This document shows, piece after piece, positions 7,311 through 30,259 of a stretch of DNA of 64,000 bases. Source of the DNA: Takashimella koratensis (taxonomy: Eukaryota; Basidiomycota; Tremellomycetes; Trichosporonales; Tetragoniomycetaceae); assembly GCA_003116875.1 (NCBI GenBank), contig BCKT01000003.1, positions 189,143 through 253,142 of the forward strand, written 5' to 3'. Both the position numbers and the translations under genes were made by a program. Below the pieces are notes generated by a model. The model was not told where the DNA came from. It worked only from the letters and a program-made list of their open reading frames with translations, and did no database searches. Positions within the stretch are counted from its first letter, which is position 1. Each line of letters opens with the position of its first letter.

Positions 7311-9278
7311 TTAGTGCTGGACGGCAGTAGCAGTAACGGTCTTGAAGTCGACGTCGTCCTGGACGACAATGTTCTCGGCTTTGCCCATCTTGCGACGGAG
7401 AGCCTGGATACGACGGGTCTCCTTCTCCGACTCGAAAGTGAGGTACCAGCAGACACCGCTCATGAGAGCTGCGAAGATGATGCAGCTACCGCAAACGACG
7501 AATGAGACGGTGTCTATGGCGGGTCAGTCATGTTCGGTCTGTATCAGGGATAGCAAGGGCAACTTACAGGTAGGGCCGTACTTGGACTGGAAGACCTGAG
7601 CAGACCAAAGGCCGGACATCTGACCAGCACCGGTGAGGAAAGCCATGATGAACGCCGCGTTGGTGGTACCCTTGATCGCCTGGACACGCCACGGGATGAA
7701 AGTTTGGTACGCCCACGAAGCGAGGGGGTACATGGTGACGATGATGGCGTACTGCGCGGGCTTGCTGTTGATGAATGCGAGCATGAAATAACCGGCAATG
7801 TTGTAGGACAAGGCAAACCAGAGCAGGACGGGACGAGGGATAAAGGTGATGCGGTCGTTGAGGTACGCGCCGCCGATACCACCGATCCAGTAGAGGGCCG
7901 CAGGAGGAATGGTGACTGTATGGCCATTAGCAAGGGTCATGTTATTGATCAAGTGAGAAGGGTTACTCACGGAGGACGTTCTGGGCGGCGTTCTTGGTGA
8001 GACCAAAGCTGGTGATAATGGACGGGAGCCAGAAAGCGAGACCAAGGGCACCAGTGTTGTAGGCGAGGATCATGACCGCAAACGCAAGGTTGGTAACGTC
8101 CTTGAGAGCGCCCTTGAGCTCTTGCACGTCAAAGTTCTTGTCAGATTTGCGGGACGAGCCGGGACCGAGACGACCGATGATGAACTTGCGCTCGCGCTCG
8201 CTGAGCCACTTGGCATCCTCGGGGACTGGGTGGGTCAGCTACGATCCCAGGGCGAAGTATAGTCGACTCACAGCCAGGCATGAATGCCCAAACGAGACCA
8301 ATGAGGACGAAAGCCATGAGACCCTGGATGATGTAGACCCACTGCCAGGCACCAAGACCACCCTTGCCATCGATAAAGCTGACACCGTAACTTGGAGGGG
8401 GTTAGCAAGGCTCAAGAAAGAGTAGGTCGAGAAGCTTACCAGAGGAGAGCGACGAAGATGTTGCAGAAGTTGAACATGGCAGAGATGGCGGCGAAACGGG
8501 GGCCGACCTCGTCAGGGCGGTACCAGTAAGTCAAGTGGAGGTAGGCACCGGGAGCCATGCCGGCCTCGAAGAGACCAAGGAAAGCGCGAGCCTAAGGTCG
8601 TCAGCGTCCGCGTCCAGGGAGAACGAGAAGTAGACTCACAGTGAGGAGACCAGCAGTGTTGTAAGCGGCGGCGTGGCAGATAGCAGCAATAGACCAGAGT
8701 GAGATGATACTGACGAGTGTCAGCTCAACGCGAGTCGGAAGAAGACAGCTCTCAGCGAACCAACTCACCGAATGTAGTGCCATCGAGGGGTAGCCTTCTT
8801 GAAAAGCAAGTTGGAAGGCAGCTCGCCGAGGGCGTAGAAGAGGGTGAACACGGTGGAGGCGTAGGCGTAAGTGTCGGAGGACATGTGGAGCTGGGTGAGG
8901 ATGTTGGTGGGGCTACCAGTGTTCATCGTCTTCACGCTAAAAAAAGTGTAAGTAGGGGCTAGGCAAGGGAGGCGCAAGTTCACTTACTAGGAGATAGCGC
9001 CGCTGTCCATGCCTCGGAGGAGGTATGTGAGAAGAAGAGGAGTGACCAAGCGGAAGTCGATCTTGCGGATAAGTCGCTGACCCTCCTCGTAGGTCATCCT
9101 TGTACCGTCAGTAAGGTTGACGCCTTGCTGAACACCAAGTCACTTACAGGTCACGCCATTCGGTTTGCTCCTCGACAATAGCAGCGTTCTTCTCGTTGGA
9201 GGTGGATGGGGCATCGGCGACAGTCGCCAAGGCGTACTGGTCCTTGCCAGCCTCGATCTCAGACTCGATAGCGGACAT
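7311..9278 (-). CDS. MFS transporter, Dal5/allantoate-permease (anion:cation symporter) type
   Basis: Nine exons: 9278-9148, 9098-8988, 8936-8769, 8709-8640, 8591-8440, 8390-8272, 8225-7971, 7915-7568, 7513-7311; 518 residues. The order of hydrophobic segments and the N-terminal IRKIDFRLVTPLLLTYLLR signature are those of fungal Dal5/Fen2/Seo1 carriers that import allantoate, ureidosuccinate, vitamins and similar small anions at the plasma membrane. The C-terminal cytosolic tail is basic (EKETRRIQALRRKMGK). It is divergent from the hydantoinase across a 1-kb spacer, so a likely job is uptake of hydantoins, N-carbamoyl amino acids or related ureides; the substrate is inferred from neighbours only. 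A fragment of a paralogue of its last exon lies at 24020-24178. Confidence 0.88.
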
Positions 9279-10305
9279 GGTGATCCTGTGTAGAAGGTAG
9301 AGTGGGAGTTGGAGGAGGAATCGATGTGGAGGGTCAGGATATATGAGTATGAGTGATTCGGCGGAGTTGGAAGTTCTGTGAAATCGTAACTTCGGAATCA
9401 GTCGTCGGCTTTAAGTAGGTATCCGTGAATCGATGGGGTAGTCGGCGAATTGGTGGGCGAGTCGCCAAGCACTACGCCGTTAGAACGTTGGGCGAAGGCA
9501 AAGAGACAAGTTAGAGACCGCGTCATGTTGGTCTCGACTTCAAAAGAGATCTGCCTGCTTTTCGTGGTCCCGCCGGGGCAAAGATCCAGAACTTGAGATA
9601 AGGTCAGCCCATTTTGACCAATGAACTGATTCCGAGTGAGCGATTCGCTTCGCCAAGACTAGCGCCAAACCGTTCCGATAGCGACACGAGGCTGGGCGCA
9701 GCATACGGCGTCGGCTCCCGCGGCGAGACGGTTAGAAAGTTAGGGTCAATAGGGCATTTTGACTTTTTAATCGAGGTGTGGATCCGGGACAGATCTGGTT
9801 CCAGAGGGTTTATATTGTTCCGGCCAGTCAGGATGGAGTGAAGCAAGCGCTCGTGGACGAAAGTGGGTCGGGGTATTGAAAGTGGGATCTATTAAGTACG
9901 CGAGGCCATGCAGGGCAGAGACAGGCAGGGGGAGTCGGGGGACCCAACAGACCCCCGCCACTGAATAGCGGGTCTCAGGCACCTCCACTCAAATCCTCCC
10001 TCCCGTGTCGGAAACCGCGGTAGGCAGGGAGAGGAGGTGAACTTCTTTGCCGACGGCCAAGTGGCACGGCGGACTGAAACCATGCATGGCCAAGCGGGCG
10101 GCGAGGTCCTTCGCCGGTCAAGTTCCAACGGCCGATTCGAGCGAGAAACCGAGGTAGGGAGGCACCCCGTACGTCGGGGCTGTCCGTAGGTAGGCCAAAG
10201 ATTATGACCGCTATCTAGTGCACCATCTCTCGAACTCGTAACTTTTTGCCAAATTCCAAGCTGAGATTGAACATTGACGTTATCCATCTTACAACACCAA
10301 CCAGT
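9279..10305. promoter_or_regulatory. divergent promoter region, transporter / hydantoinase
   Basis: About 1 kb between two divergent start codons of the putative hydantoin cluster. It contains an AGATAAG at 9596-9602 and a CTATCTAG-type core near 10211-10217, both fits to the HGATAR site of fungal GATA nitrogen regulators. No gene seen inside. Confidence 0.45.
9596..9602 (+). promoter_or_regulatory. possible GATA-factor site (AGATAAG)
   Basis: Matches the extended HGATAR consensus bound by fungal nitrogen GATA factors. Short sites occur by chance, so the weight comes from its place between two genes expected to be nitrogen-regulated. Confidence 0.3.
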
Positions 10306-12047
10306 ATGAGCGCCTTTGACTTTGACCTTGTTGTGAAGAACGGTATCGTCGTGACGGCGTCGGTGAGTGCTGCCGGTACCCGCTCAAAGATTTCGCTGAC
10401 ATGTCTGGCTCTAGGACGAGACGGAATGCGACATCGGTATCAAGGACGGCGTCGTCGTTTGCCTTGCCAAGAATCTCCCTTACGGCCCTAACTGTGAGGT
10501 CATCGACGCCGAGGGCGCGTACATTACGGTACGTCAAACCCCCCTCTTTACCGGCCTTGGTGACAGTGAGGTCTTAGCTGACAACTCTCTGTAGCCCGGC
10601 GGCGTCGACTCGCACGTCCACATTGGCCAGTCGGCCTCAGGCGCTCGTAGCGCTGACAACTGGACCACCGGTACCCGCGGCGCCATCAGCGGCGGCACCA
10701 CCACCGTCGTTGCTTTCGCTGTTCAAGCCAAGGGCACCTCGGTCATGGACGCGGTTGAGGCTTACTACAAGCTGGCGGACGGCAAGACTCACTGCGACTA
10801 CTCGTTCCACGCTATCGTCACTGACCCGAGCGAGAACGTCGTCAAGGTCGAGGTCCCCAAGATGGTCGAGTTCGGTATCACCAGTGTCAAGGTGGGTCAG
10901 CTGAGATCCCAGGGTAGCGGTGTCAGAGCTGACAACGTTGCAGATCTACATGACCTACCCCGCGATGAAGCTCAACGACAAACAAGTGCTCGACATTCTC
11001 TGCGCTGCCCGACGGACAGGTGTCACCACCATGGTGCACGCCGAGAACGCCGACATTATCGACTGGATGACTGCGAACCTTGTTGAGCGCGGTATGGTCG
11101 AGCCCTGGCACCACGGGACCGCCCGACCCCCTATCGTTGAAGATGAGGCGACCAACCGCGCCATCGCCCTTGCCGAGGTTGTCGATGCGCCCATGCTTAT
11201 TGTCCACGTTAGCTCCAAGGAGGCGACTGCGGTCATCCGCCGGGCTCAGACCCGCGGCCTCCCCCTCTACGCCGAGACCTGCCCGCACTATGCCCTCCTC
11301 ACCGCCGAGAAGATGATGGCCCCAGGCTTCGAGGGGTATGTCATGGCTTCGTCTTCTCCTTTCCCTCCTCATACGTTCATCTAAGCCTTGCTGACACGTC
11401 ACAGTGCCAAGTGCGTCTGCGCCCCGCCAATCCGATCCGACCCCATGGACAAGCAGGGTATCTGGGACGGTCTTGCCAACGGCACCTTCACCGTCTTCTC
11501 CTCCGACCACGCCCCTACCAACTTCTACGACGAGCTCGGCAAGCAGCGCGGTATGCTTAACAACCCGACCAAGAACGCTCGCGGTGATTTCCGTTACATC
11601 CCCAACGGTCTCCCGGGAGTCTGCACCCGTACCCCTTTGCTCTGGTCCGAGGGTGTCTTGAAGGGCCGACTTACCAGGCAGAAGTTTGTCGAGCTCAACT
11701 CGACCAACGCCGCCAAGCTGTACGGAATGTACCCGAAGAAGGGGACTATCGCGCCCGGGTCGGACGCCGACTTGATCATCTGGCGAAGCGAGAGCGCTCG
11801 TAAGCCCCTCGTCATTAGGCAGACCGACTTGCACCACGGTGCCGACTACACGCCCTACGAGGACATGGAGATCGAGGATTGGCCCAAGACTGTCTTGCTC
11901 CGTGGTAAAGTCGCGTACGACGGTGTCTCCAACAAGGTCCTCGCTACCGAGGGCCAGGGCCAGTTCATCAAGCGTGGATTCAGCACCCTCCCAGGTCCCC
12001 GAGGACACTCGTCGGCATGGCTCAACGGGTTCAACCCGCACGCATAG
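10306..12047 (+). CDS. dihydropyrimidinase / D-hydantoinase family amidohydrolase
   Basis: Exons 10306-10362, 10415-10528, 10595-10891, 10944-11335, 11405-12047; 500 residues, the usual length of the family. It opens the ring of 5,6-dihydropyrimidines or 5-substituted hydantoins to N-carbamoyl amino acids using two metal ions. Metal ligands are visible: PGGVDSHVHI (His64, His66), the Lys to be carboxylated at the end of exon 3 (SVKIYMTYPAM, Lys156), HAEN (His188), LIVHVSS (His244) and SSDHAP (Asp321). The KIYMTY stretch separates it from allantoinases and dihydroorotases. Linked to a racemase, a D-carbamoylase and D-amino-acid oxidase, it is better read as a D-hydantoinase than as a pyrimidine-catabolism enzyme, though one protein could do both. 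Confidence 0.92.
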
Positions 12048-12665
12048 GTGGAATTGAGTGGTTCATTAGATTGGTGTTATAGATAGGGGCTCTGGAGTCT
12101 GTAGCGTTCGTGTGCAGTGAACAACATGCATTTCTTGGTGGCTATGACACTTGACTCGGCTCTCAGGAAGCGGCTCTCCTATGTTGTTCAGATCCTTTCT
12201 CCAGCCTATGCGGCGCTCGTACGCGACTTCGCTCGAAAGCACACACATTCGCTTGCGGTGTCTCCGTCCTTAACCTATACGGGTATGCATCGCGGGGTGA
12301 CAACACAGCTCCTCTTAGGTCCGGGTGAATGGGCATTTGACCAATAGGATGAAGTCAAACTCGACGACTGGACGCTTCGCCGGCGGCTTAGAAGGGAAGG
12401 GAAGGGGATCGCCGAGTCTATTTTGGCCCGGATCCACGGCGTAAAACTTGTCGCTGTACATTGTCGGAGCTGACAGCCGGGGTGCAGCGCGTGGCTATTC
12501 GGTCCTATGCGTGCGGGGGGAGCGGGTACACCGTGTAGCCTCTATTTGCCGCAGGGGAGCTAGGCAAATGCGAAGGAAATGAAAAGGGCCTGGGGTCTGT
12601 TGGCGAATTTCCATTTTCTTGCACTCCACTCTCTCACTCCACCACCACGCTTGTACATCGCCACC
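12048..12665. other. intergenic spacer
   Basis: About 620 bases between two plus-strand genes, holding the promoter of the aldolase-like gene. One AGATAG core lies at 12081-12086. No gene recognised. Confidence 0.4.
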
Positions 12666-13915
12666 ATGGCTCCCATTGCGATCAACGAGACCACAACTGA
12701 GGCCCACGAGGTCGTCAAGCCGGCCACTGAGTTCAAGCAGAGCACGGCGGACCTCTCGAAGAACCCCTTGCAGCGTACGTGGCGTGGGAACAAGGAGGGC
12801 ACCCTCGTCATCGAGGGCTACCCCGCGTTCATGGAGGCGACCGACGAGGAGGGTCTCCTGAAGAAGCGGCAATGGGTCAAGGTGAGTTTCATTCAAGCTT
12901 GACATACAGGTGTAGATAGGAAGGCGTGGTAATGACTGCTGTTCATCGGAGGTGATTGCTGACAGAACACAGGAGCACATGGCTCTCTGCTTCCGATTTT
13001 GGGGCAAGCTCGGGTACGGAGAGGGTATCAGTGGTCACATCACCGTTCGTGACCCTATCCTCCGTGACCACTTCTGGATGAACCCCTTCGGTGTCCACTT
13101 CTCTGCCATGACCGTCAGCGAGTGAGTACAGTCGTATACAACTCGCTCAAAGTGGCGATCTAGGATGAAATTAATACTCACACCTGACTAGCCTTGTCCT
13201 CGTTACACCTGATGGTTATGTTCACCCCCTCGGCAACCAGCGACCCATCAACGTGAGTACCATCATCAATACCAAGTCGCAATCGCTATCCCATCGAAAC
13301 CGTGTACACGAATTGACTCTGCTAGATGGCCGGTTTCTACATCCACTCCGCTATTCACCACGCTCGCCCCGAGGTCGAGGCCGCTGCGCACTGCCACTCT
13401 TTGCACGGCAAGGCCTGGTCGTGCTTCGGTCGCCCTGTCGACATCACCACCCAGGACTCTTGTCTCTTCTACGACAACCAGGCTGTGTACGACAGCTTTG
13501 GTGGGATCGTTCTCGCAGCTGAGGAGGGTGCCAACATCGCCAAGGCGCTTGGACCCAAGAACAAGTGCGCCATCCTCAAGAACCACGGTCTCCTTACTCT
13601 TGGTCACACTGTCGACGAGGCGATTTACCTCTTCTCCGCACTCGACAAGCAGTGCAAGTGTCAGCTCATGATTGAGGCAGCGGCCGCCAACGGGATCAAG
13701 AAGACCCTCATTGACCCAGAGGACGCCGCCTTCACCGCTGCCACCATCCAATAGTGAGTGTTGCCACAAGCATGCGCGTCAATCTTCGACCTGGCTTGCA
13801 AGACTGGGAAAAGAAGGAAGCATGCTGACATGTCATCAGCCACGAGAACGTTTACTACAACCTCAACCCCGAGATCGAGCTTCTCCGCAAGCGCGAGCCC
13901 GACGCGTTGGAGTAG
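12666..13915 (+). CDS. class II aldolase/adducin-domain protein (Mug14-like)
   Basis: Exons 12666-12881, 12973-13121, 13192-13252, 13326-13753, 13840-13915; 309 residues. The core shows RFWGKLGYGEGISGHIT, then VTPDGYVHPLG, then HCHSLHGKAW (His164 and His166, likely metal ligands) and LKNHGLLTLG. This is the fungal branch of the class II aldolase/adducin superfamily, whose bacterial members are zinc aldolases or decarboxylating enzymes; reactions of the fungal proteins are mostly not known. It sits between the hydantoinase and the racemase on the same strand, so it may process a side-chain product or an oxo acid made by the pathway. The last short exon supplies YHENVYYNLNPE. Cytosolic by appearance. 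Confidence 0.88.
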
Positions 13916-14531
13916 AGAGATAGACTATTTTGTATCTTGTTTTATGCACGTCCGGTACCTTTGACGCCAGTCATGAGGCAACGACAGCCTGGCACCGTCA
14001 CGTCCTGGTTCCGGATCCTTCCACTTACATCCATGGGCAACGGGTCCCGCGCCTGCCGGAGCGAATGTGCTGCTCTTTGCCTTCCTGTAGACAGGTCAAG
14101 TTTGTGTCCTCGCCCGCCCGCATACTGACTTACCAACATGCATGGCTTGGGGGCTTAGTGGCGAGATCTTACTCAGGGCCAAAAACGCATAGTCGCCCTC
14201 CCCACCCTGTAAAGGGTCATTTTCGCCGACGGCGTGAGATAACATTCTCTCCCCCACCGCCCACTCGGCCAAGTACAACAGCACATATCCTACTCTCGTC
14301 GCCGTCTATTGCCGCCTCGGCTGCCTGATTGACTGGATCTGGCTGGCTTGGGCTTCGCCAACTGTGAGCGGCTATGTGCGGATTGAGACTCGCTCGTTGG
14401 AGATACACTGATCCGTGTATTCGGCTTCTGACATCAAACTTTGAAACTGTACGACTGGACCTACCGTTCCCAGCCAGAGTCACCGCTCACCACCTGACTT
14501 GAGCCACCACCTCCTCCACCGACCCACAACC
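13916..14531. other. intergenic spacer
   Basis: About 620 bases upstream of the racemase gene. It holds an AGATAA core at about 14237-14242 and pyrimidine-rich stretches nearer the start codon. Open frames here carry no recognisable motif. Confidence 0.4.
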
Positions 14532-15269
14532 ATGACTACGCTAAAGCTGCTTATCGTCAATCCCAACTCGTCGGCATCCATCACCGTCGCGGTCGAGGAG
14601 TCGCTAGCGCCCGTTTGCCCTCCTGGCGTCTCGCTCGTTTTCTGGAACCCATCCACTGGCCCACCCGGTATCAAAGACGCGCAAACTGGTATCGAGTCCA
14701 CCGAAGCCTGTATGGCTGAGCTGGTCGGTACTCCTTCGGTTCCCCCTACCCATCCTTTGGTCGGATATGACGGTGTCCTCGTCGCTTGTTTCACTGAGCA
14801 CACGCTGATCGACCGACTCGCCGACCACTTCGTCGCTACCAAGTCGAAAGCCGTTTGTCTCGGTATTTTCCAAGCCGGCCTCGCAGCGGCGTTGCTCCTT
14901 ACTTCGAGGAAGTTTGGGATCATCGCCACGGGCACAGGGAGGAGAGAGAACCATTACGTGGGGGTCTCAAACTTCCTCGGAGCCGACGCCGATAACTGTC
15001 CTCGATTCGTAGGATCGAAGACGACGGGTCTGCAAATCGTCGAGCTGCAAGATCTAGCGCTGCAGGAGAAGGTCGAGAAGGGGATGAAAGAGACCACGGG
15101 GGAGTTGGTGGATATGGGCGCAGAAGTGTTGGTGTTGGGTTGCGCGGGGATGTGCGGGATGGACCCATGGTTGCACAGTGCGGCAGAGGCGAAGGGGAAG
15201 GGTATCAAGATTGTCGACAGTCCCCGAGCAGGTATGCAGATGCTCGTCGCGCTCCTTCGCGCACGGTAA
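14532..15269 (+). CDS. Asp/Glu/hydantoin racemase family protein
   Basis: Single exon, 245 residues, start at the ATG giving MTTLKLLIVNPNSS, the N-terminus typical of the family (LxxINPNxS). The family interconverts enantiomers by proton transfer between two Cys: VACFTEH (Cys86) and VLGCAGMC (Cys204) supply them. A known fungal relative, Dcg1, lies in the Saccharomyces allantoin cluster. Next to a hydantoinase and a D-carbamoylase the simplest reading is a hydantoin racemase converting L- to D-5-substituted hydantoins; an allantoin-type substrate is the alternative. It is the only clear enzyme of this cluster without introns, which could reflect transfer or intron loss. Confidence 0.9.
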   Translation: MTTLKLLIVNPNSSASITVAVEESLAPVCPPGVSLVFWNPSTGPPGIKDAQTGIESTEACMAELVGTPSVPPTHPLVGYDGVLVACFTEHTLIDRLADHFVATKSKAVCLGIFQAGLAAALLLTSRKFGIIATGTGRRENHYVGVSNFLGADADNCPRFVGSKTTGLQIVELQDLALQEKVEKGMKETTGELVDMGAEVLVLGCAGMCGMDPWLHSAAEAKGKGIKIVDSPRAGMQMLVALLRAR

Positions 15270-15425
15270 GGGTTGTCAGCGACCATTTGTAGTTTTGGGA
15301 ATAAAGTCTATGCATTGTCACTTGTTGCATGTATCACATCACAGCGGCTCAAAGAACAGAGCAAGAGCAAACGTATTGTCCTTTGATAGATGATGTAGTG
15401 AGATATCTCTAAAGGGTCTACGCGA

Positions 15426-18373
15426 CTAGACGGCAAAGTTGAACAAGGTGTCGAAATCCCACTCGGTCGCGCTGAAATCCCACATGAACTGCTGTTCCCC
15501 TGCTCCTGTACCATTGGGTGTCGTACTAGCTGGTAGTGCTAGTCCACTTCCCGTGATTGTCATTGCCCCGCTTTGAGACGTCTCAGGCACCGCCAAGCCT
15601 CCGTTCCCTCCATCCACCGCTGCTGACGTCGATTCTGGCTGCCCGCCTTGACCGTCGTCTGTGCTCGGACCCTGTAACGCGTCGCAGAGTTCATGGTGTT
15701 CGTCGACGCCTCGGAAACGGGCAGCGACGGCGGCAGCTCGGCGTAAAGCTGGGACAGCAACGTCCCAGGATGCAGTGGTGTGGAGGCGACGTAAAGTCGC
15801 GATGAAGGAAGTCAAGAGCCGGAGTGGGTCTTCAGCGGGTGACGAGTCGGATGCGAGGGTGAGCCGAATGAGCGAGGACGTCACGGATGACAAAATGTGG
15901 GAGGCGTCTAAAGAACAAGTGGGTCAGTAAAGCTACAGGAGTGTTGAAGGTGTTACGTACAGATTAAGAAGTAACCGTCCACCTCGGGAACTGTCAAGCG
16001 GTTGACAAAGTCCACGCAATCATGGAAAGGCGCCAAGATATCCGCTGACGGGGTGAAAGTCGAACCCAATCCATGCTCGAGCTCGATTTGAATACGTTTC
16101 AGCATACACCGAAGTCCGAGCAGATGAACAAGGAAAGAGTCTAGGCGCAGGTCAGCAATACCATGAGTGAATATCGCGTGGTACTTACTAACGCCCGTCG
16201 CTCTTGGCGCAGACCGCTCTGCAACGTCTTTCCACTCGATGAACATCTCATCAACCAACGAGGCGATATCGCCCACTTCGTCTCGCCTTTCCGACGCGCT
16301 GCGGTCGCTCACTACCCCCAATGTGCAGACTTCGGCCTGAAGACGACATACGATCTGCGCAAGGCGACAGGACGCGATGAACGACTTGGCAGAGTCCGTG
16401 GATACTTCGCCATAGCTCTTGGAGGCGTTGACAACGCTGGATAATAGAGGAAGGGGGACAGTTGAGTTGTACGCCTGGATATGACACGGGCGAGAGTTTA
16501 CTGAATCGTGTCAGCAAACTATAGCGTGATCAAGACTTACAGAAACTCATCCAGGCATCGTGAATCGCCAACGTCCACCAAAGCCTCACTCGCAGCTCTT
16601 GCTCCCATTTCGGGATTGCCCATTTGAGCGGGCTCATATGCATACCTAATAGCTGCGCAAGTGCGATAGTCTGGAGCATCACAGGTCAGCGCTGGCCCGA
16701 GTTGAGAGTGTCACCTAGAACCCACCTTGGCTAGAAGAAGATATGAGGAGCGACTGCTTGTCGATGGCCGCATCCCCAATTCCAACACAGCGGCGGCGAC
16801 ACCTGCCAAGCTGTTCTCGGCCTGGCCCAGCGAAGCGGTACCATACAAGCTGACCGTCGGCGGTGCTATAGGGCGGAAGGATGCCGAGTGGCTAAGGGAA
16901 GAGCAGATCATCGCAGCCAGGAGCTGGGGCGGGAAGTTGTCATCGTTGCTAGGCAGGATTGGTAGAGCCGGGTGAATTGAGGTGTTGTAGAGAGCTAAAA
17001 GAGACGCTTCGGTAGGGTGAAGAGGGTGGTTGCGAAGAAAGACCCGGATATGCGCGAGCGCGGTGACTCCCATGGACGGAAGAGGTGCAGCTGGGATATA
17101 AGTAAGCGGAAAGCGTTGTTAGAGAACAGTCAACCTACATTCGGCCTTGGGATGCATGACGACAAAGATTGGTCGAGTAGGGTCTGAGGACTGGAGATCC
17201 GTCAGCTGGGGACAAGAGATACGCAGCTGAGTGACGCACGATTTGCTTAACATGGGGACCATCGTTGGCGCTCGCGTTGGCCGCTGCGGGATCGGAGATG
17301 GGGAGCAGGTCGTCGGTGAGGACGACCGTGAGCACTGTGAGATTCCAGATGTCAGCACAAGCCTGCTTCATCTTACTCGCGCGCCGCTCACCATGTGGAT
17401 CGAAATCCGAGTTGGCATATTGATCAAAGGACGAGATGTTGGTCTTTGCGATTGCCTTTACATGTCGGCCCCTAGGAGCCGGTACCGGAGCAGGGGTAGC
17501 TTCCGATGTGCTTCTCGATGACATTTCACTGGTGTCTCGAGTACTTGGGCCATCCTCAGCAGCAACGGCGGGTTTCGACTGGGATGCGGAGTCGGGCTTG
17601 GAGCCGTGTCTGGCGCTCTGTCCTGCATCGCCGACATCATCGTCGTCGTCACGTTTACGGCGCTTAGAGATAGAGGCCGTCGGAGTGTCCACGGTCCGGG
17701 GGGTATCGTCCATCCCGTCGTCCCCTCGCATCGGCTCGTCCGCACCGTAGTCGTCATCCATATCGTTATCGTCCTCATCTTCATCTACAGCTGCCTGTTT
17801 ATGCTTGGGTCGAGTAGGCTGGGACTTTGCTCCCGATGACGATGGGGGTGCCGGTGCCAGAAGCCGAGCTTTTCTTGGCGGTGGGGCCAAGTCGAATGTA
17901 CACGGTTTGTGGGTCTCCGAGCACTGAGTACAAGGGGGTCCTCCAGAGCCGATGGTGCATCTCGACTTGGATCGACGGCACAGGTCGCAAGGACGGTTCT
18001 TCCTTGATCGGGGAGGCCGGGCACCGCCTGTCGGGGAAGGGACGGTGGAGGTCGACGGACCTGCCCGAGGGGCCTGAGCGATTTCCCGAGGCTGTGAGAC
18101 TCGAGAATCGGTATGTTGCGTGTGATTGTATGTATGCCGCCAGCTCGAGTCGGTCAAAGTATCTGGGTGAGGCAGACCGTAGTGCGTAGGAGGCTGGTAA
18201 GTGAGAGAGGGGTCGATGATGGGGTAAGAAGCAGCACTGTTTGCTGAGCCTGGTCCAGCGGCGGTAGTTGTGGACGGCGAGATGTCCTGGTCGGCGGGAG
18301 CGTAGTAGCCGCGGTAAGCCATGTCGAGGTCCCGGTCACGGCGATCGTCTGCGTGGCCGTGTGCGTGCTGCAT
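15426..18373 (-). CDS. Zn2Cys6 transcription factor, likely cluster regulator
   Basis: Eight exons: 18373-17392, 17334-17240, 17190-17139, 17090-16726, 16670-16541, 16500-16189, 16140-15961, 15907-15426; 865 residues. The start is the first ATG in frame (MQHAHGHADD). The zinc cluster is RPCDLCRRSKSRCT then PPCTQCSETHKPC, preceded by basic residues. A long low-complexity acidic region follows (a run of Asp/Glu/Asn), then a nuclear-type basic patch (SKRRKRDDDD). The second half carries the fungal middle homology region, with QLLGMHMSPLKW and RLWWTLAIHDAW. It is convergent with the racemase (156 bp apart) and sits in the middle of the hydantoin genes, so it probably controls them. A relic of a paralogue of its last exon is at 23586-23983. 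Confidence 0.88.
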
Positions 18374-18716
18374 GGTGCTGCCGAGGTGAGGTGAGATGGG
18401 ATGGGATGGAGGGGGATGAGATGAGGGATGGAGGGAGATGGGTAAACACGGGGAGACTGAGGAAAATAAAATCAAAAGGAAAACCCTCTAAGGAAACGTA
18501 AAGATACCATTGGTGGGAGGCACAACTCGTTATCTGCTCTGGGTCAACACAGGGCAAAGGGCTTCCGTGACTGAGAGCGGGCTGGGGCGATCATGAAGAA
18601 TACAAGCCGGCGGTCAGAGCATCGGAGATGCATCAGACAGAGCAAAAACCTATGTCACAGTGTATGCATGCCATGAGTCAAATGCGAGTACATCATCTCA
18701 ACACCCTCTGCCACGA
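18374..18716. promoter_or_regulatory. promoter region of the Zn2Cys6 regulator
   Basis: About 340 bases upstream of the regulator start and just past the oxidase stop. It has a GATAAC core on the minus strand near 18532 and an imperfect GGGAT/GGATGAG purine tract around 18390-18430. No gene seen. Confidence 0.4.
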
Positions 18717-19957
18717 TCACAACGCCAGGACCAACTCGACCGCGTCGGCGGCCGTACCCCAGCAGCTCTGCCACCCTGCGCCACCATGGCCGTAGTTGTA
18801 CACCACCGCAGTACCCTGCACGTCTTCCCCTCGCTCAAGCCTGACACCGTCTCGTCGGGACGGGCGGAATCCAACGAGGTGGTCCGCGACCAGCTCAGAC
18901 AACGGCGACTCGAGCGACAACGAGGCAACGTCAGGCTCACCAGCCAACGCCGGGGCAGACTGGTACGCTGGTCGCAAGGCCGGGCAGATCTCGAGTGCTC
19001 GGCGGAGAATGTCCCCCTTGGTCTCCTCTCGGGGGTAAGGGTACCAGTCGTCAATCTCCCTAGTGCCACCGAGAATCACGTCGCCGTCGGGTCGGGGGAT
19101 AACGTACGTCCGCTCACCGCCCTCACCACCGTCGAGGCTACCGACCTGCCGAGTCCAGCCGTTGCGCACCCATGGAGCGCGGACCTTGACGACCTGGCCT
19201 CGGGTAGGGAAGACGGTAGAGTCCTCGACACCGCCAAGAGTAACCGCACCGATCCCAACACAGACAACGACAGCCAAGGGCGTAACGTCTCCGATGAGAG
19301 CACGGACGGAGGGCGTTGAGAGAGAAGTCAGGGACGAGAAGTGGTATCGGTGGACCTTGCCACCGAGCTCACTGACTCGTGCAAGCAGGCGGTTGAGATA
19401 GACAGCCGGGGTCATGGTGAGCGAAGTGAAAGCGATGGTATGGTCGACCGGCGGGTTCGAGACTGTCTTGGGGTCAAGCACGGTGAACTGGAAGATGTCA
19501 GTAGGTCATGTGTATGAAGGTTTAGATGACTCACGTCTGGGTGCTCCTCAAAGATTTCGAGGTGCTTGTCTGTCCCGACGTAGAGTTCGGTCTGCTTGAG
19601 AACCATCAAGCCGGACTTCTCGCCCACGGTCTTCCATTCGTCGTACATGATCTTGAACGCTGTAATGTAAGGTCATTTTAGCGATGATCTTTGTGTACTT
19701 GCCGCAGACTACGTACTCTGACTGTCCCACCGCCGTTGACGAGTGTCGTTGTCGTCGGCAAAGCTGAGATGATGAGCGCCCGCGATCGTCGATGCATAGT
19801 AAGCGTCGAGCGGGTCGTTGGGCATGTGGTCTGCAATGACATGGACCGGGTGACCCTTGGACTTGCAGAGCGGCGACTCGAGGAGGCGCACGGCAGTGGT
19901 GAGTCCGATGACGCCCGCGCCGAGGACGACGATGGGAGCGGGAGTCGAGGAAGTCAT
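18717..19957 (-). CDS. D-amino-acid oxidase
   Basis: Exons 19957-19717, 19659-19535, 19487-18717; 378 residues. Oxidises D-amino acids to 2-oxo acids, ammonia and hydrogen peroxide with FAD. Signatures in order: FAD loop [10 protein letters not shown] (Gly13, Gly15, Gly18), [11 protein letters not shown], the second strand region [36 protein letters not shown] (substrate-carboxylate Arg) and [13 protein letters not shown] near the C-terminus. The protein ends ELVLAL directly after the last helix and lacks the Ser-Lys-Leu peroxisome signal of many yeast relatives, so it may be cytosolic. D-aspartate oxidase is the main alternative. Divergent from the D-carbamoylase, whose product would be its substrate. 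Confidence 0.92.
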
Positions 19958-20480
19958 GTCTGTGAGCTAGGTAGGGATAGGATGTGGAAGAGAATGGTCG
20001 GTGATCGAGGGTCTTAGAAGACGTCTTTTCTTTAATTTTGTTGTTGCAGTTGCAGTCCACCGGCGAGCGATCATCGCCGACTCTGTTACAGCGGCGCGAG
20101 TCGGACTCTGCGTTGGCCCTGTCCTGGATCTGTCCGTGATGCTGCCGGCTGGCTCCTGCATGCATGGACCCGGATTCGAGCGAGTTCCGATACGACCAAT
20201 GAGACCCATGCATGGGCTGAATAGAGGTCGAACGCTCGCGTCTGACTGGCTGGGGGGGACTTGGCCGGGAGTTGGCCGCCGGCAAAGTGGCACCGGGCGG
20301 TCCATTTCCCCCCGAATCGCTCCAGATCCTCAGAGACCAAAGATCCTCCACCGTCAGCGACACCTCTGTCACAGGTACCTGAGCAAGCTCTCACCGAGGT
20401 TTGAGATCAGTTCAAAAGTTTTCCTCGTCTTCTTCTCCCTTCTCACACTTCTTCTGTCCTTCCTCATCACTAGAGCCACC
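19958..20480. promoter_or_regulatory. shared divergent promoter, D-amino-acid oxidase / D-carbamoylase
   Basis: Only 523 bases separate the two start codons, so the consecutive steps of the pathway very likely share control sequences. The carbamoylase side is pyrimidine-rich (20420-20465). No strong GATA site was seen in this stretch. Confidence 0.55.
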
Positions 20481-21661
20481 ATGCCCCGTCTCATCAAAGT
20501 CGCTGCTGTCCAGGTCGGTGCTGTCCACCGCTCGACCCCTCGTGCCGAGGTCCTCGCCCGGTTAATCAAGCTGCTCGAGGATGCCGCTGCCCAGGGCGTC
20601 CAGCTCGCCGTCTTCCGTGAGTCATGCAGTTGCGCAAGCACCCGACCAGCCGCTGACAACGACTCCGCCTTCCCCTACAGCCGAGACGACCTTCACAACC
20701 TTCTTCCCGCGCTACTACATCACTGACGAGGCCGAGCTGGCGAGCTACTACGAGCTCGAGGACGAGGCTACTGGCTCTGTGGTCAACTCTCCCAACGTCA
20801 AGTCCTTCTTCGCCCGCGCTCTCGAGCTCGGCGTCGACGTTCAGATCGGGTACGGCGAGGACACTGGCGTCCCCGGGAAGCGATACAACACTGCCGTCTA
20901 CGTTTCCGGCAAGACTGGCCAGGTGCTCAACAAGTACCGCAAGGTGCACTTGCCCGGCACTATGGAGCCCTTCGACTTGGACCCGAACACCACCAACCAG
21001 CTCGAGAAACGATACTTTGTCCTTGGTGACTTGGGCTTCAACGCCTTCCGCGCCACCTCGCTCAAGGATGAGGCAAGCGGGTCGTCCCCCATCGTCGGTC
21101 AGCTCATTTGCAACGACCGTCGATGGGCCGAGGGCTGGAGATGCTACGGCCTCCAGGGTGTGGAGATTCTCTGCTGCGGCTACGTGAGTCCAGTGGTCCG
21201 AACTTGGCTCCTGCCTTCAATCGAGATCCAGATCTAGCAGTGTAACGAGCCGGTGAGCTAGAGCTAATCGTTCACAGAACACCACCGCATATGCGCCTCA
21301 GCTCTGGGGTGGTGACCAGAACATTTCTCGCGAGAAGGCCTACGATGGTGCCATGTTCCACCACAAGCTCGTTGTCCAGGCCCACGCGTACACCAACTCG
21401 ATGTTCTGCATCACCTCTGCCCGAGCTGGTGTTGACGACGGTCTTCACCCACTCATTCCCGGCTCGATGATCGTCGATCCGGAGGGCTACATCGTCGCCG
21501 AGTCCAAGACGGAGGACGACGAGCTCGTCGTTGCTACGATCGACCTCGATGCCTGCAACCAGGGCAAGCAGAGGACTTTCAACTTGGGTAAACACCGTAG
21601 GCCAGAGATGTACGACCGAATTGTCGCTACCGACGGTGTCGTCCCTCCCGCCGAGCCATGA
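20481..21661 (+). CDS. N-carbamoyl-D-amino-acid amidohydrolase (D-carbamoylase)
   Basis: Exons 20481-20616, 20681-21183, 21278-21661; 340 residues. Nitrilase-superfamily enzyme hydrolysing N-carbamoyl-D-amino acids to D-amino acid, carbon dioxide and ammonia. The catalytic triad is present: FPETTFTTF (Glu47), KYRKVHLPG (Lys133) and LICNDRRWAEGWRCYG (Cys189), followed by GVEILCCGYNT. The ICNDRRW block is typical of bacterial D-carbamoylases rather than of beta-ureidopropionases or carbamoylputrescine amidases. The first intron cuts the codon just before the catalytic Glu. Such enzymes are known mainly from soil bacteria, so an ancient transfer followed by intron gain is plausible but unproved. 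It supplies substrate to the divergent D-amino-acid oxidase. Confidence 0.93.
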
Positions 21662-22124
21662 TTGGCTCCCAACTCCGGTGCCCACTATCATAGACAGACC
21701 CATGCATTGCATATACCCAGGCAGCTCCATACTGCCCTTGCCCCTTGTGTTGGCGCGTACATCCTCTTCACGTCGCTTGCAGCCCAGACTTCAACCGGTT
21801 ATTGATGGTTGAGAAATCCGCTGCCGCGTTCTGCCGCTGGTCTCAGGGCTTGCCGTGAACTTTTCGCGACGATCTGACTTGGCCGTTTTACTTGCCGTCT
21901 CGCCGTTTCGTTCGCCGTTTTACGCCAAGACCCGCCGTTCTAGGGACATGAAGGTCGGTTTCTGCCGAGTGGCCAATACGGTTGCCGCGAGCCCAATCCC
22001 GCCCTGGCAGACGACTTTAGTATAGATAAGCCCCGAGGCGCGTTCTCTTGCGCCCAAAATCTCTACGCTTAACCGGGGAGACTGCTTGTTACTCGCACTC
22101 AAGTCCCACCATCTATTCTATACT
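21662..22124. promoter_or_regulatory. promoter region of the dioxygenase gene
   Basis: About 460 bases. An AGATAAG (22024-22030) lies some 95 bases before the dioxygenase start. A set of GCCGTTTT/CGCCGTTT-like short repeats lies at about 21880-21940 and has no assigned meaning. Confidence 0.4.
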
Positions 22125-23407
22125 ATGCCCGTCGCTGTCCCCACGCCCGAGGCTGCCCCGGTGCCCGCGCACGCCAAATACCAAGAGACCTCGAGCGCTG
22201 TCGCGAGTCTCCCCGTCGTCGACTTTGAAGGGTTCGACGGCGGTTCCGGTCCTCGCGCCAAGGAAATCTCGGAGCAGTTCTTCGCAGCCTGCCGTGATGT
22301 GGGCTTTGTGTACATCAAGAACTTTGGGATGGACTTGGATATGGTCAAGGACATGTTTGGGTGGTCGAAAAAGTTCTTTGACCTACCCAAGGAGGTCAAG
22401 ATGAAGGCCCCTCACCCGGTGGAAGGGTGGCACCACCGCGGGTACTCGGCTGTTGGTGTGAGCACTGCTGTACAGCTGGTGAGTCTCGGAAGTGGCGAGT
22501 GCCCTGGTCCAGTGTCTAACACTGACTCCAATGTCTCCAGCCTCACGATGCATCTGAGGAGGAAGTCGCTATCTACAAGGCGACTCGCAAGTTCCCGGAC
22601 AAGAAGGAGTGAGTCTAGATCCAGCTTCTCTAGCCCAAGCTTGACGTGCGCTGTCAACACCACTGACTTATTCAGGTCATTCGAGTACGGCCACGAGGAC
22701 CACCCGCACCTCCCGAACATCATCATCCCGGACGAAGACCTCCCCGGTTTCCGTGCGGCTCTTATCAACTACTTCGAGGTCGCCAAATCTGCATCCAAAA
22801 ACATCCTCAAAGCACTCGAGATGGGTATGCCGCACGTCACACCCGGTTTCTTGCTCGAGTACCACGCGTGGGGTGATAACCAGCTCCGACTACTGCATTA
22901 CCCTCCGCAGAAGACAGAGGCGCTGAGGAGTGGGGAAGTTGGACGGATCGGAGAACACACTGATTATGGGTGTGGAACGTTCTTGTTCCAGGATGATACG
23001 GGAGGATTGGAGGTTGAGGACCCCCACAACCCGGGTAGCTTCCTCCAAGCTAAGCCGCTCAAAGACCACGCTGTTTTCAACATTGGTGAGTCGATCCTCG
23101 GCGCCACCGGTCATTTTCACTTCCAAATGGAAGGCACTAGTGCTCACATATTCTAGGTGACTTGCTCCAGCGATGGTCGAACAACACCCTCCGATCAACC
23201 TGCCACAGGGTCCGCTGCCCTCCTGATTTTGTAGGCGAAGAGACCCCAGCCCGCTACTCGATCCCCTACTTCTTCCGACCCGACCCGGAGCGCGTCATCG
23301 ACTGCCTCCCCGGCACGTTTAACGACACTGACAGGCCTAAATTGTACAAACCTGTGTCGACGTTGCAGTATGTCAGCGAGAGGCACAACCACACTTATCG
23401 AAAGTGA
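22125..23407 (+). CDS. 2-oxoglutarate/Fe(II) dioxygenase (isopenicillin N synthase-like family)
   Basis: Exons 22125-22478, 22541-22608, 22676-23085, 23157-23407; 360 residues. N-terminal DIOX_N part with LPVVDFEGF and RDVGFVYIKNFG, then the jelly-roll core. The facial triad is visible as GEHTDYG (His, Asp) and STCHRV (distal His), and the 2-oxoglutarate-binding RYSIPYFF follows. Fungal relatives include thymine-7-hydroxylase-type and gibberellin-oxidase-type proteins, so substrate cannot be fixed by sequence reading. It follows the D-carbamoylase on the same strand and closes the putative hydantoin cluster; oxidation of a heterocycle or of a D-amino-acid side chain is possible. No targeting signal seen. 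Confidence 0.88.
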
Positions 23408-23585: not shown

Positions 23586-23983
23586 TTACGCCAAGGTTGT
23601 AAAATCTAAGAACTGGTCAAACGTTGGTTTCCCACCCGGCCACAGCCAAGCCAATTGCGACTCTACCGCAGCCTCCGTACTCTGACTAAAGACTGCCGAT
23701 GCAACTGACTGGCCTGGTGCTATCCCTCCAGGCGTGGAAGACGAACTTCCCCTCAGGGCCTCACAGAGAGCCTCGTGCTCTCCAGACGCCTTGAATCGCT
23801 CACTTACAGCTGCTGCTCGCCGTAGAGCCGGAGCAGCTACATCCCACGTGTTGTTGGATTGGAAAGTATGGAGCGAGCGAACAAGGCGAGCGATAAGGTC
23901 CATCACGCCTGTTGGAGTCGCAGGTGCCGCTAGTGCAAACCGTATCAAGGAGGAGAGGACCGATGAGAGGATATGGGAGCAGT
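23586..23983 (-). pseudogene. relic: last exon of a Zn2Cys6 regulator
   Basis: The minus strand reads SHILSSVLSSLIRFAL, NNTWDVAAPALRRAAAV and GEHEALCEALRG, then a C-terminus ending DFTTLA. This matches the last exon of the regulator at 15426-18373 (SHILSSVTSSLIRLTL, ASWDVAVPALRRAAAV, EHHELCDALQG). It starts at an AG acceptor in the same codon phase as the parent exon, but there is no zinc cluster, middle region or upstream exon nearby. The frame is open, so decay of this piece is recent or it is fused to unseen transcript. Best read as a remnant of a duplicated cluster. Confidence 0.7.
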
Positions 23984-24019
23984 CTGTGTCAGGTAAAGAA
24001 CATCAGCAATGATAGTTAG

Positions 24020-24178
24020 ATCGCCGTTGTCATCGTCTCCATGTACTGTTGGTACCTCACCTACAGTACTGAGAAGGAGACTCGACGTATCCAGGCGCTC
24101 CGTCGTAAGATGGGCAAGCAGCAGAACGTCGTTGTTCACGACGATGTCGACTTTGTCACTCCTGCTCACCAGCAGTAA
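24020..24178 (+). pseudogene. relic: C-terminal piece of a Dal5-type transporter
   Basis: Fifty-two open codons ending in taa. CWYLTYSTEKETRRIQALRR then KMGKQQNVVVHDDVDF nearly repeats the end of the transporter at 7311-9278 (CWYLTFESEKETRRIQALRR, then KMGKAENIVVQDDVDF). The match begins within the last membrane segment; directly upstream is an in-frame tag, and no other transporter exon precedes it. It lies 36 bases from the regulator relic, head to head. The reading frame is intact, which suggests the loss of the rest is not old. Confidence 0.75.
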
Positions 24179-24339: not shown

Positions 24340-25890
24340 CTAGTATGCGTACAGAAGTTTCACTCCCGGTTCCTGCTTCAGTTTCCTGTTCATCGTCTGC
24401 AACCAAATCCTCAATGCCCAAGAACAAATAATTACACCCGTCACTAGCGCTGCGTTCGTCGCCATTGCCATAAGGTACTGAGGGCCCGACTCGGCCGGGT
24501 AAAGGTACGGGCTGTAGATGAACGATGTCATCGAGATACAGTTGACGATTGAGAGAGCAGCAGCTTTCTTCTCGGGCGTCTGTCCACATGTTGCTGAAAC
24601 CCAACCGAGGATGACCGAGTTGGCGGAATACGCGCCAGTGGCGAACAAGAAGCACGCAATGTAGCGTGGTGCCGTTTTAAGCGTGACAGCAGCCATGATG
24701 AAGCCGATGAGCGCGACGACCATACCGCCTGTGATGTGCCACGTTCGCTCGTTGAAACGACCCGACGAGTAGCCGAGCCAGACCGCGAAGAACCCAGCGC
24801 AAAGGTAAGGCGGGCAGGTGAGAACGAGTGTAATGGTGGTTGAGTAACCGAGAGTCTGAACGACAGTTGGGAAGAACGAGTTGAATCCGCAAGCAGCAAG
24901 GTGCATGCTCTGGAGGACGGCAAAGAGGTAGATTCGCGGGTCGACGAGAGCTTGTTTGAAACCAGCCATGGGGCCCTTGCCGGCCTCGAGTCCGACGGTG
25001 TCGCGGTCCATTCGATCCTGTGCGAGTTGTCGCTCCTCGGGTGTAAGCCAACGAGTCGAGAGTGGCTGATCCGGAAGTAACCACAAGCCGATAATCGCAA
25101 CGCCAAATGTCACAGCGCCGAGGATGATGAACAACCATCTCCAGCCAGCAATCCCGTGAACGCCTGAGAGAGTCGCGAAAACAGCGGCAGAGATGAGACC
25201 CGCAAACGAAGTGGCGAAAATGTTGGCCGAGTATAGAATACTGATGCGTGTGGCAATCTCACGGCGGGTGTAGAAGAGCGACAAGAGGTAAATCGCACCA
25301 GGGTAGAAGGGGGCCTCTGTGTTGTGTTAGCAATTGAGAATGCTTCTGGAACAGGGAAACTAACCTGCAAAGCCCAGGAGGAAGCGAACGGCGAAGAGAC
25401 CGGCATAGTTTTGAGCGGCTGCGGTGGCAGCTGAGCAGACAGCCCAAGCCATCATCCAGCATGCCATCCAAGTGGACGGGCGGACGTGTCGGGTGGACAT
25501 GAGCAAGTTGGACGGGATTTGGATAAGTGTGTACCCGGCGTACAACACCGAGACTGTTACGTTGAATTGGTTACCGACGAGACCAAGGTCTTTGGTGAGG
25601 GTGCCGAGCTTGGCATTGGCGATGGCGTTCTGGTCCGTCTTGTTAAGGTAGTACATGGCGAAGAGGATGGGCATGATGTGCCAGTCAAGTTTGCGAACTA
25701 GACGCCTCTCCTCGTCCGAGACTTGGGTCGAGGTACCGAAACGGTCGACGTGGGCGTTCTTCTCGTCGAGAGCATCTTCCTTGTCGGCAAAGACGGGAGC
25801 TTCAACGTGTTCGACGTCGATCTTCATGTCGGCATCGGCTGCCGGGCCGAGTGTGCCGGTGGCTGAGTGGTAATGTGTTGGTGAAGACAT
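24340..25890 (-). CDS. MFS transporter, Dal5-type (anion:cation symporter)
   Basis: Exons 25890-25365 and 25316-24340; 500 residues. N-terminal cytosolic part, then LVRKLDWHIMPILFAMYYL, NKTDQNAIANAKLG and the usual twelve hydrophobic segments, with GWRWLFIILGAVT and WLTPEERQLAQDRM in the central loop. These are the marks of fungal ACS/Dal5 carriers for organic anions. It is divergent from the DapA-family aldolase (566 bp), so a sugar acid or related carboxylate is a reasonable substrate guess. A TATATAA lies about 70 bases upstream (25959-25965, minus strand). Not closely similar to the transporter at 7311-9278. Confidence 0.87.
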
Positions 25891-26456
25891 GTCTATGGGT
25901 TTGAAGTTTGGGGCAGCTGTCGGACTGTGAGGTCCTCAGCAGCAAGATGAGTGCCGCGTTATATATGCCGCCATGTCTTCCTTTGGTTTGTCCCACTTTG
26001 AGATGAGAGATGTGGTGAACGAGAATAGAAGTCGACGGAAACAGTCATCATCGTGCCCATGGGGCTCTTTCTCTCCATTCAATGGCAGTCGCACTCCCCA
26101 TCTCGGATGCAGTCACCCGTTTGGTGGGTCACCGGTTGAAATTTCGCCGAACCGACGGTTGTCTCTCCCGCGGCACAGGCGGCCAGGGATGGTCACGGAT
26201 GCATGCTTCCGAGGGTCATGTTGACGGTTGCGCTCAACCGTCCGGGTAGTCAGTTGCCAGTTACAAGCATCCGTTTGGGGCTCAGAGTCGAGTCCGCTGC
26301 CGATGTCGACGGCTACTAGCGTGGTCAGCATGATGAGCTCCAAAGGTATAAGAGCGAGCGCGACGATGGCCTCGAACTCGCCACCCTAGCTCCTCGACAA
26401 CACTTTGAAACCAACGCTCTCCAGCCTCACACCAACCAAAACTCACAACCTTCACA
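25891..26456. promoter_or_regulatory. divergent promoter, transporter / DapA-family aldolase
   Basis: 566 bases between two divergent starts. Minus-strand TATATAA at 25959-25965 serves the transporter; a TATAAG at 26347-26352 lies about 105 bases before the aldolase ATG, with a pyrimidine-rich leader after it. Confidence 0.5.
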
Positions 26457-29916: not shown

Positions 29917-30259
29917 CGCAGTCGTTAAGCGCTGGAGCGATGTTGGTGGAAAGAAGTGAAGGGGACCCTGGGGTGGTGGAAGTAGTCTGCCGGCAATGCC
30001 GGGTACTGTGGCTGACAACGTCCACGGAGGCAAAAACAATGGCCCGGGCCAGGGTCCCCCAGAGAAGTTTACCAGGCTCCCACTGGATCTCTCACCGCGC
30101 GCGCGTCGTCGGACTCCGACGCTGTGACAAATCATAGAGCCCGCCTGTTGCCAAAGATTTCCCCGCTGGGCGGTCATTTGCAAAAGCTGGCAAGCATATA
30201 AAGACTCTGGCAAACTCTTGACTTGTCACACCCCACACCTCTGTCAGCGTTTAACCGAC
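29917..30259. promoter_or_regulatory. divergent promoter, Zn2Cys6 regulator / YCII gene
   Basis: 343 bases between starts. TATAAA at 30197-30202, about 58 bases before the YCII ATG, is a good TATA candidate. Confidence 0.5.

Follow-up and report, generated by a model that had tools for sequence, protein, structure and literature searches.

Within a 64 kb stretch of the Takashimella koratensis genome (C3:189143-253142 of a 25.1 Mb, 24-contig assembly; the whole stretch is referred to here as the window), eight intact gene models spanning 7311-23407 make up what, judged from the predicted proteins, is a real, co-localised eukaryotic version of the D-hydantoinase system that includes a D-aspartate-type oxidase and is partly kept across several fungal lineages. 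We regard it as a new, fungal form of the system known from bacteria, which probably serves the D-route catabolism, likely by way of D-aspartate, of a 5-substituted hydantoin, of its N-carbamoyl (ureido) acid counterpart, or of both. The eight genes proposed in an earlier sequence-only reading of this DNA were all found as intact models in the same positions, and its suggestion of a eukaryotic D-hydantoinase-type cluster is upheld by the protein families, linkage in other fungi, natural racemase-carbamoylase fusions and a common promoter motif. The genes lie on both strands and seven of the eight contain introns. Gene models were predicted using a codon-usage splicer, with manual correction of those for the 2-oxoglutarate (2OG) dioxygenase, the racemase and the regulator, and 13 gene models of the window were included in a Pfam scan, in which the best E-values of the seven proteins other than the regulator ranged from 8e-23 to 2e-42. 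The cluster proteins are closest to homologues from Kwoniella (Tremellales), Naematelia and Cryptotrichosporon.

The genes for hydantoinase and carbamoylase lie within 11.4 kb. The hydantoinase exceeds the cut-off of the D-hydantoinase equivalog TIGR02033 (487 bits against 393), its best-scoring model being the PRK13404 dihydropyrimidinase subfamily (613 bits, below the cut-off of 647), and falls far under the cut-off when compared to allantoinase models (238.8 against 357.9 bits). It shares 44 % identity with 2fty, 43 % with 1nfg and 78–83 % with Kwoniella and Naematelia homologues, and its metal-ligand motifs agree with those of 2fty and 1nfg. In all five tremellalean sequences aligned (query included) the loop that follows the HxH motif carries an Arg/Lys, which is absent from 2fty, 1nfg and the hydantoinases of two bacterial loci, L051 (Achromobacter) and L082 (Bordetella sp.). 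Each of the best 11 Protein Data Bank (PDB) matches of the carbamoylase is an N-carbamoyl-D-amino-acid hydrolase (lowest E 9e-66), it is 79–84 % identical to five Kwoniella homologues, and E47, K133 and C189 are kept in 13/13 aligned sequences (query included). The racemase has a fold nearest to allantoin/hydantoin racemases, its model being closest to the allantoin racemases, and though no NCBIfam model matched it, the C86/C204 pair is kept in 25 of the 25 sequences aligned (query included). Catalytic residues earlier read directly from the sequence were confirmed by these alignments in the carbamoylase, the racemase and, as metal-ligand motifs, the hydantoinase. A second, diverged D-carbamoylase-like gene (49–69 % in pieces) lies outside the cluster at C10:1141293-1142633, and no recognised cluster partners were seen beside it among the few gene models there.

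Linkage in other fungi was read from locus tags and from contigs of equal length in protein listings. The carbamoylase and the oxidase are on contigs of equal size in 12 of the 13 strains listed for both, which is a strong but indirect sign of one contig and, for megabase contigs, of the same chromosome only. The two locus tags are 1 apart in four strains and 3 apart in three. The linked strains include Kwoniella (dejecticola, pini and CBS 9459), Rhodotorula, Rhodosporidiobolus, Sporobolomyces, Pseudohyphozyma and Dendrothele, and span Agaricomycotina and Pucciniomycotina. The racemase adjoins the carbamoylase in Kwoniella sp. DSM 27419 (IAU60_002541/002542), its tag differs by two from that of the oxidase in Cryptococcus sp. 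DSM 104549, and in Tremellales sp. Uapishka_1 the carbamoylase, racemase, oxidase and aldolase are all on contigs 76217 long. The hydantoinase shares an equal-length contig with the carbamoylase (K. shivajii) or the oxidase (Naematelia) in two of four named rows, the other two being not comparable. The aldolase is linked in one of two comparable fungi, Saitozyma sp. JCM 24511 being the exception, and the dioxygenase is off the carbamoylase contig in both of those where a comparison could be made (K. shivajii and Pseudohyphozyma). Hence, the gene order in close relatives, which the sequence-only reading had put forward as a way to overturn its proposal, was not found to be random for the carbamoylase, oxidase and racemase.

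Carbamoylase and PF01177 racemase domains are fused in 10 of the 120 carbamoylase matches listed (522–593 aa), seven of them from named ascomycetes (Emmonsiellopsis, two Friedmanniomyces, Saccharata, Aspergillus puulaauensis, Zymoseptoria and Colletotrichum), and the carbamoylase domain comes first in the four fusions aligned. Natural fusion of this kind is independent support for both enzymes acting in one pathway.

The oxidase, earlier taken for a D-amino-acid oxidase, is an FAD oxidase but is predicted to be of the D-aspartate-oxidase type rather than a general D-amino-acid oxidase. In the PDB it matches the D-aspartate oxidase 9vpf at E 2e-120, while the best match to a D-amino-acid oxidase has E 2e-34, and it has the D-aspartate-oxidase-type insert, in which an arginine aligns with R243 of 9vpf. 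All 16 linked oxidases aligned, the query among them, have this arginine; the D-amino-acid oxidase 1c0i and three Agaricomycete oxidases (of Dichomitus, Auricularia and Trametes) lack it. A maximum-likelihood tree groups the query with 9vpf and the Cryptococcus rows in a set of 24 rows (support 99/98), and a surrounding set of 26 rows (support 100/99) contains all of the linked Tremellales oxidases. The nearest oxidase among the matches listed is that of Cryptotrichosporon argae (75 %). According to a passage in PMC4489021, Dao1 was the only one of the recombinant Dao proteins of C. gattii to show appreciable activity on D-Asp. The cluster oxidase ends in -LAL and carries no C-terminal peroxisomal signal, which occurs in only some members of the D-aspartate oxidase family. 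Seven linked oxidases of Microbotryomycetes type (from Rhodotorula, Rhodosporidiobolus, Sporobolomyces and Pseudohyphozyma) have peroxisomal-signal-like ends (-AKL, -PKL, -SKL or -YKL), and the linked Tremellales oxidases (query included) and the Cryptococcus rows are without one; given these differing C-termini, peroxide may arise in a different compartment in the two groups.

For comparison with bacteria, the best 80 of at least 581 confirmed carbamoylase loci were examined (46–51 % carbamoylase identity). Among these, the nearest carbamoylases (~50 % identity) are largely from Roseomonas-like and acetic-acid bacteria, a likeness that suggests an old exchange with fungi. Racemase-like genes are nearby in 14 or 21 of the 80 loci, depending on the probe, and hydantoinase-like genes in 37, mostly at 23–27 % identity and at 41 % or more in four. 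In two loci, L051 and L082, the carbamoylase, a racemase and a hydantoinase of 46–47 % identity all lie within 5 kb. Using tblastn, the D-aspartate-type oxidase and the dioxygenase were each found in none of the 80 and the aldolase gave four weak matches, and weak profile matches to the oxidase were seen in three loci (E 1e-4 to 9e-4); as 19 of the 80 are <15 kb, absences there are weak.

A 12-base motif, TTYGCCGRCGGC, occurs four times in the window, always in cluster promoters (shuffled expectation 0.02). Its half-motif CGGCCAAGT is likewise seen four times in the window, each time in a promoter of the cluster, the dioxygenase promoter being one of them (shuffled mean 0.45). As the patterns were picked after inspection, the counts show how the copies cluster and cannot serve as unbiased tests. 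Copies of the full motif precede the starts of the hydantoinase, aldolase, racemase, carbamoylase and oxidase genes by 195–330 bases and lie 768 bases from that of the transporter. The whole 25 Mb genome has 18 copies (13 of the reversed control pattern), so that finding four of them within 10.2 kb represents a strong local concentration. The core alone, GCCGNCGGC, has six window copies, four of them in the cluster. A CCG-N-CGG core suits a Zn2Cys6 protein, and the presence of a Zn2Cys6 regulator, as noted in the sequence-only reading, is borne out by six cysteines that can be read directly, though the PF00172 score of 18.9 bits is below the cut-off of 21. We infer that this protein probably controls the cluster genes via TTYGCCGRCGGC and that the cluster is probably co-regulated. 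The genes and motif copies are listed in Table 1.

Table 1. Genes and promoter motif copies of the T. koratensis cluster, numbered from the first base of the window
Feature	Position	Strand	Details
ACS-type MFS transporter	7311-9278	-	9 exons, 514 aa; PF07690
D-hydantoinase / dihydropyrimidinase	10306-12047	+	5 exons, 500 aa; TIGR02033
Class II aldolase/adducin-like protein	12666-13915	+	5 exons, 309 aa; PF00596
Hydantoin/allantoin-type racemase	14532-15269	+	single exon, 245 aa; PF01177, Cys86/Cys204 pair
Zn2Cys6 transcription factor, candidate pathway regulator	15426-18373	-	7 exons, 859 aa; six-cysteine motif
FAD oxidase, predicted D-aspartate-oxidase type	18717-19957	-	3 exons, 370 aa; 9vpf likeness
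N-carbamoyl-D-amino-acid hydrolase (carbamoylase)	20481-21661	+	3 exons, 340 aa; PF00795, E47-K133-C189
2-oxoglutarate/Fe(II) dioxygenase, thymine 7-hydroxylase-related	22125-23407	+	4 exons, 353 aa; 5c3p likeness
TTTGCCGACGGC overlapping CGGCCAAGT	10046-10062	+	starts 260 bases before hydantoinase ATG, 768 from transporter ATG
TTCGCCGGCGGC	12376-12387	+	upstream of aldolase-like gene
TTCGCCGACGGC	14222-14233	+	upstream of racemase; CGGCCAAGT also at 14266
TTTGCCGGCGGC and CGGCCAAGT	20275-20286 and 20259-20267	-	divergent oxidase/carbamoylase promoter
Half-motif CGGCCAAGT	21877-21885	-	240 bases upstream of dioxygenase

From the enzyme families we infer the reaction order, stereochemistry and substrate as follows. 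The transporter would import a hydantoin or ureido acid, the Cys-pair racemase would interconvert the L- and D-hydantoin, the hydantoinase would open the D-ring to give an N-carbamoyl-D-amino acid, the nitrilase-fold carbamoylase would remove the carbamoyl group (as CO2 and NH3), and the FAD oxidase would deaminate the D-amino acid. The order racemase, hydantoinase, carbamoylase is proposed because this chemistry is established for the bacterial process (passages in PMC7431475), and the oxidase would be the natural last step. The D-aspartate type of the cluster oxidase, shared by the 15 linked oxidases of other fungi aligned with it, makes D-aspartate the likeliest D-amino acid, in which case the products would be oxaloacetate, NH3 and H2O2, and the likely inputs hydantoin-5-acetate or N-carbamoyl-aspartate (ureidosuccinate). 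Of the end products envisaged earlier, a 2-oxo acid and ammonia, ammonia is kept, but, given the oxidase type, oxaloacetate is more likely than a generic 2-oxo acid.

The only PDB matches of the transporter are two D-galactonate transporter entries, which are weak (best E 1.5e-6), but it is plausibly of the Dal5 type and is a candidate for ureido acid or hydantoin uptake. Dal5 is described as transporting ureidosuccinate in passages of PMC1342634 and PMC2329640, and allantoate in the latter. Carriage of ureidosuccinate by Dal5 and the Arg/Lys in the hydantoinase loop are hints that agree with aspartate, and neither is proof. A narrower version, in which the cluster would be a dedicated pathway for ureidosuccinate/hydantoin-5-acetate, with the L-form flipped through the ring to the D-form and harvested as oxaloacetate and ammonia, is possible but decidedly more tentative. 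If true, this route would be a shunt returning pyrimidine precursors to central metabolism and would give the hydantoinase and the D-carbamoylase a natural substrate in fungi.

Several observations weigh against a D-aspartate-directed cluster of this kind. The arginine at the R243 position is also present in 33 of 37 other aligned oxidases and, as it occurs in linked and other oxidases alike, the aspartate assignment is a family-wide feature and not specific to the cluster. The linked oxidases do not form one clade in the tree (12 changes are needed, and 75 of 500 shuffles were as low). The K. shivajii oxidase listed is on a different contig from the carbamoylase, the single exception among the 13 strains, and many oxidase-listed species, such as C. 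neoformans and Cryptotrichosporon argae, have no entry in the 120 carbamoylase matches listed; hence, the cluster is patchy and not universal. Both TTYGCCGRCGGC and CGGCCAAGT were chosen by eye from these promoters before they were counted, the promoter of the regulator itself has no motif, and that of the dioxygenase has the half-motif alone. The best solved relative of the hydantoinase, 2fty, is a dihydropyrimidinase. Finally, the aldolase-like protein and the dioxygenase have no step in the proposed route. The nearest solved structures to the former are TqaM (E 1.4e-66) and, lower, the decarboxylase NovR (1.6e-47), both presumably from natural-product clusters, and a literature search for TqaM turned up nothing by which the aldolase-like protein could be assigned. 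Other PF00596 genes are present in the genome. The aldolase-like protein of the cluster may, at a guess, handle the oxo acid, for example as a decarboxylase. The dioxygenase is closest to the thymine dioxygenase 5c3p (5e-61), with the motifs EHTDYG and STCHRV in its translation; it is probably peripheral to the core of the cluster and may, again as a guess, prepare a substituted ring.

Other roles for the cluster were also considered. Broad scavenging of D-hydantoins and N-carbamoyl-D-amino acids, in which many 5-substituted hydantoins would pass through a general D-amino-acid oxidase to assorted 2-oxo acids, draws support from the hydantoinase and carbamoylase families, which include D-specific members of wide range (passages in PMC7431475), and sequence alone cannot give a substrate range. 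However, the far closer match of the oxidase to D-aspartate oxidase than to D-amino-acid oxidase, together with the insert and the arginine shared by all 16 linked oxidases, makes a broad role unlikely. Reductive breakdown of pyrimidines (dihydrouracil/dihydrothymine) by a PYD2-type dihydropyrimidinase, with the thymine-hydroxylase-like dioxygenase belonging to the same theme, would suit the best PDB match of the hydantoinase, the finding of no other dihydropyrimidinase-type gene in the genome and the closeness of the dioxygenase to thymine dioxygenase. Yet no dihydropyrimidine dehydrogenase was detected in a six-frame genome search covering the best candidates only, in which a split exon could be missed, the only Fer4_20 match being glutamate synthase. 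The carbamoylase is of the D-amino-acid type, and an M20-family hydantoinase/carbamoylase-type gene that is over the TIGR01879 cut-off lies apart from the cluster, at C4:344379-345612. In addition, the racemase and the D-oxidase would be idle because N-carbamoyl-beta-alanine is achiral. We consider this role very improbable.

Catabolism of allantoin or other purine ureides, with the cluster supplying an allantoin racemase, an allantoinase and a Dal5-like permease, is less credible again, even though the racemase model is closest to allantoin racemases and Dal5 is a carrier of allantoate. The hydantoinase falls short of the allantoinase cut-off yet is above that for D-hydantoinase, a different gene, at C13:760897-762556, scores above the allantoinase threshold (430 bits, cut-off 358), on C16 a second racemase and an NCS1 permease are ~3 kb apart, and the D-carbamoylase and the D-aspartate-type oxidase would have no place in that route. 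An allantoin role was rejected on the basis of the NCBIfam scores and the separate C13 allantoinase. Equally hard to credit is a specialised-metabolite cluster for the synthesis of a D-amino acid or of a hydantoin-type compound, in which the TqaM-like protein and the dioxygenase would act as tailoring enzymes. Though the aldolase-like protein is closest to TqaM, with NovR lower among its matches and both from natural-product clusters, and a 2OG dioxygenase is present, no synthase-type core enzyme was noticed among the gene models of the 64 kb window, 13 of which were scanned against Pfam, and carbamoylase plus oxidase, the combination that most often stays linked in other fungi, looks degradative. 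Hence, we favour D-route catabolism that likely proceeds through D-aspartate.

Adjacent to the cluster, a decayed duplicate at 23691-24178 consists of the C-terminal parts of a second regulator (minus strand, 46 % over 97 aa by tblastn) and a second transporter (plus strand, 67 % over 36 aa by tblastn), lying back to back as if a divergent regulator/transporter pair had lost its middle. A search for duplicated DNA in the cluster found a single 41-base pair of copies with 76 % identity. The adjoining segment (24340-27446) includes a second MFS transporter, 24 % identical to that of the cluster, and a DHDPS-family (PF00701) gene, which may constitute a separate small pathway. At 27532-30225, a long minus-strand open reading frame missed by the gene finder resembles another Zn2Cys6 regulator (cysteine motif by eye).

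To our knowledge, the natural role of the D-hydantoinase and D-carbamoylase used in industry is an open question. The cluster offers a specific candidate substrate class, an aspartate-derived hydantoin or ureido acid, and supplies eukaryotic enzymes together with a candidate regulator and a candidate binding motif, and the partial sets in other fungi lead to a testable guess at the natural function of this industrial route. The openly licensed literature searched yielded no account of a cluster of this kind in fungi. The sequence-only reading, which knew of no described fungal counterpart, holds for those papers, but the arrangement is not unique to this genome as partial sets are linked elsewhere. 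The terms carbamoyl and hydantoin, or N-carbamoyl, are absent from the main texts of PMC10006432, PMC8708985 and PMC4489021, and the first of these, an RNA-seq study of D-aspartate in Vanrija, contains none of six terms looked for in its main text. A link to caffeine (PMC12735256) was dropped, as the one passage there that uses 'hydantoinase' concerns an oxoprolinase-type domain.

Parts of the cluster resemble known systems. The fungal D-aspartate oxidases (9vpf, Cryptococcus Dao1 and the Vanrija/Cryptococcus humicola enzyme) are like the cluster oxidase in family, insert and arginine, but the gene for the latter sits within a hydantoinase-type cluster. The dihydropyrimidinase 2fty, which we take to be Lachancea kluyveri PYD2, resembles the cluster hydantoinase in its metal-ligand motifs and overall identity; the cluster gene differs in its linkage to a D-carbamoylase, a racemase and a D-oxidase, and its product in the loop Arg/Lys, which 2fty lacks. 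The DAL cluster of Saccharomyces is made up of genes for allantoin degradation, and includes a permease of possibly related kind and a PF01177 racemase, as here, but the T. koratensis cluster includes no allantoinase, that gene being elsewhere in the genome. The fold and the two-cysteine mechanism of the cluster racemase are shared with OpaE, a fungal protein of the Asp/Glu-racemase family (passages in PMC12661438). The closest parallel to the cluster as a whole is the bacterial D-hydantoinase (hyu) process, which has the racemase, D-hydantoinase and D-carbamoylase families in common with it. The fungal cluster differs in that it is spread over both strands rather than forming a one-strand operon, bears introns, and includes a Zn2Cys6 regulator and a D-aspartate-type oxidase.

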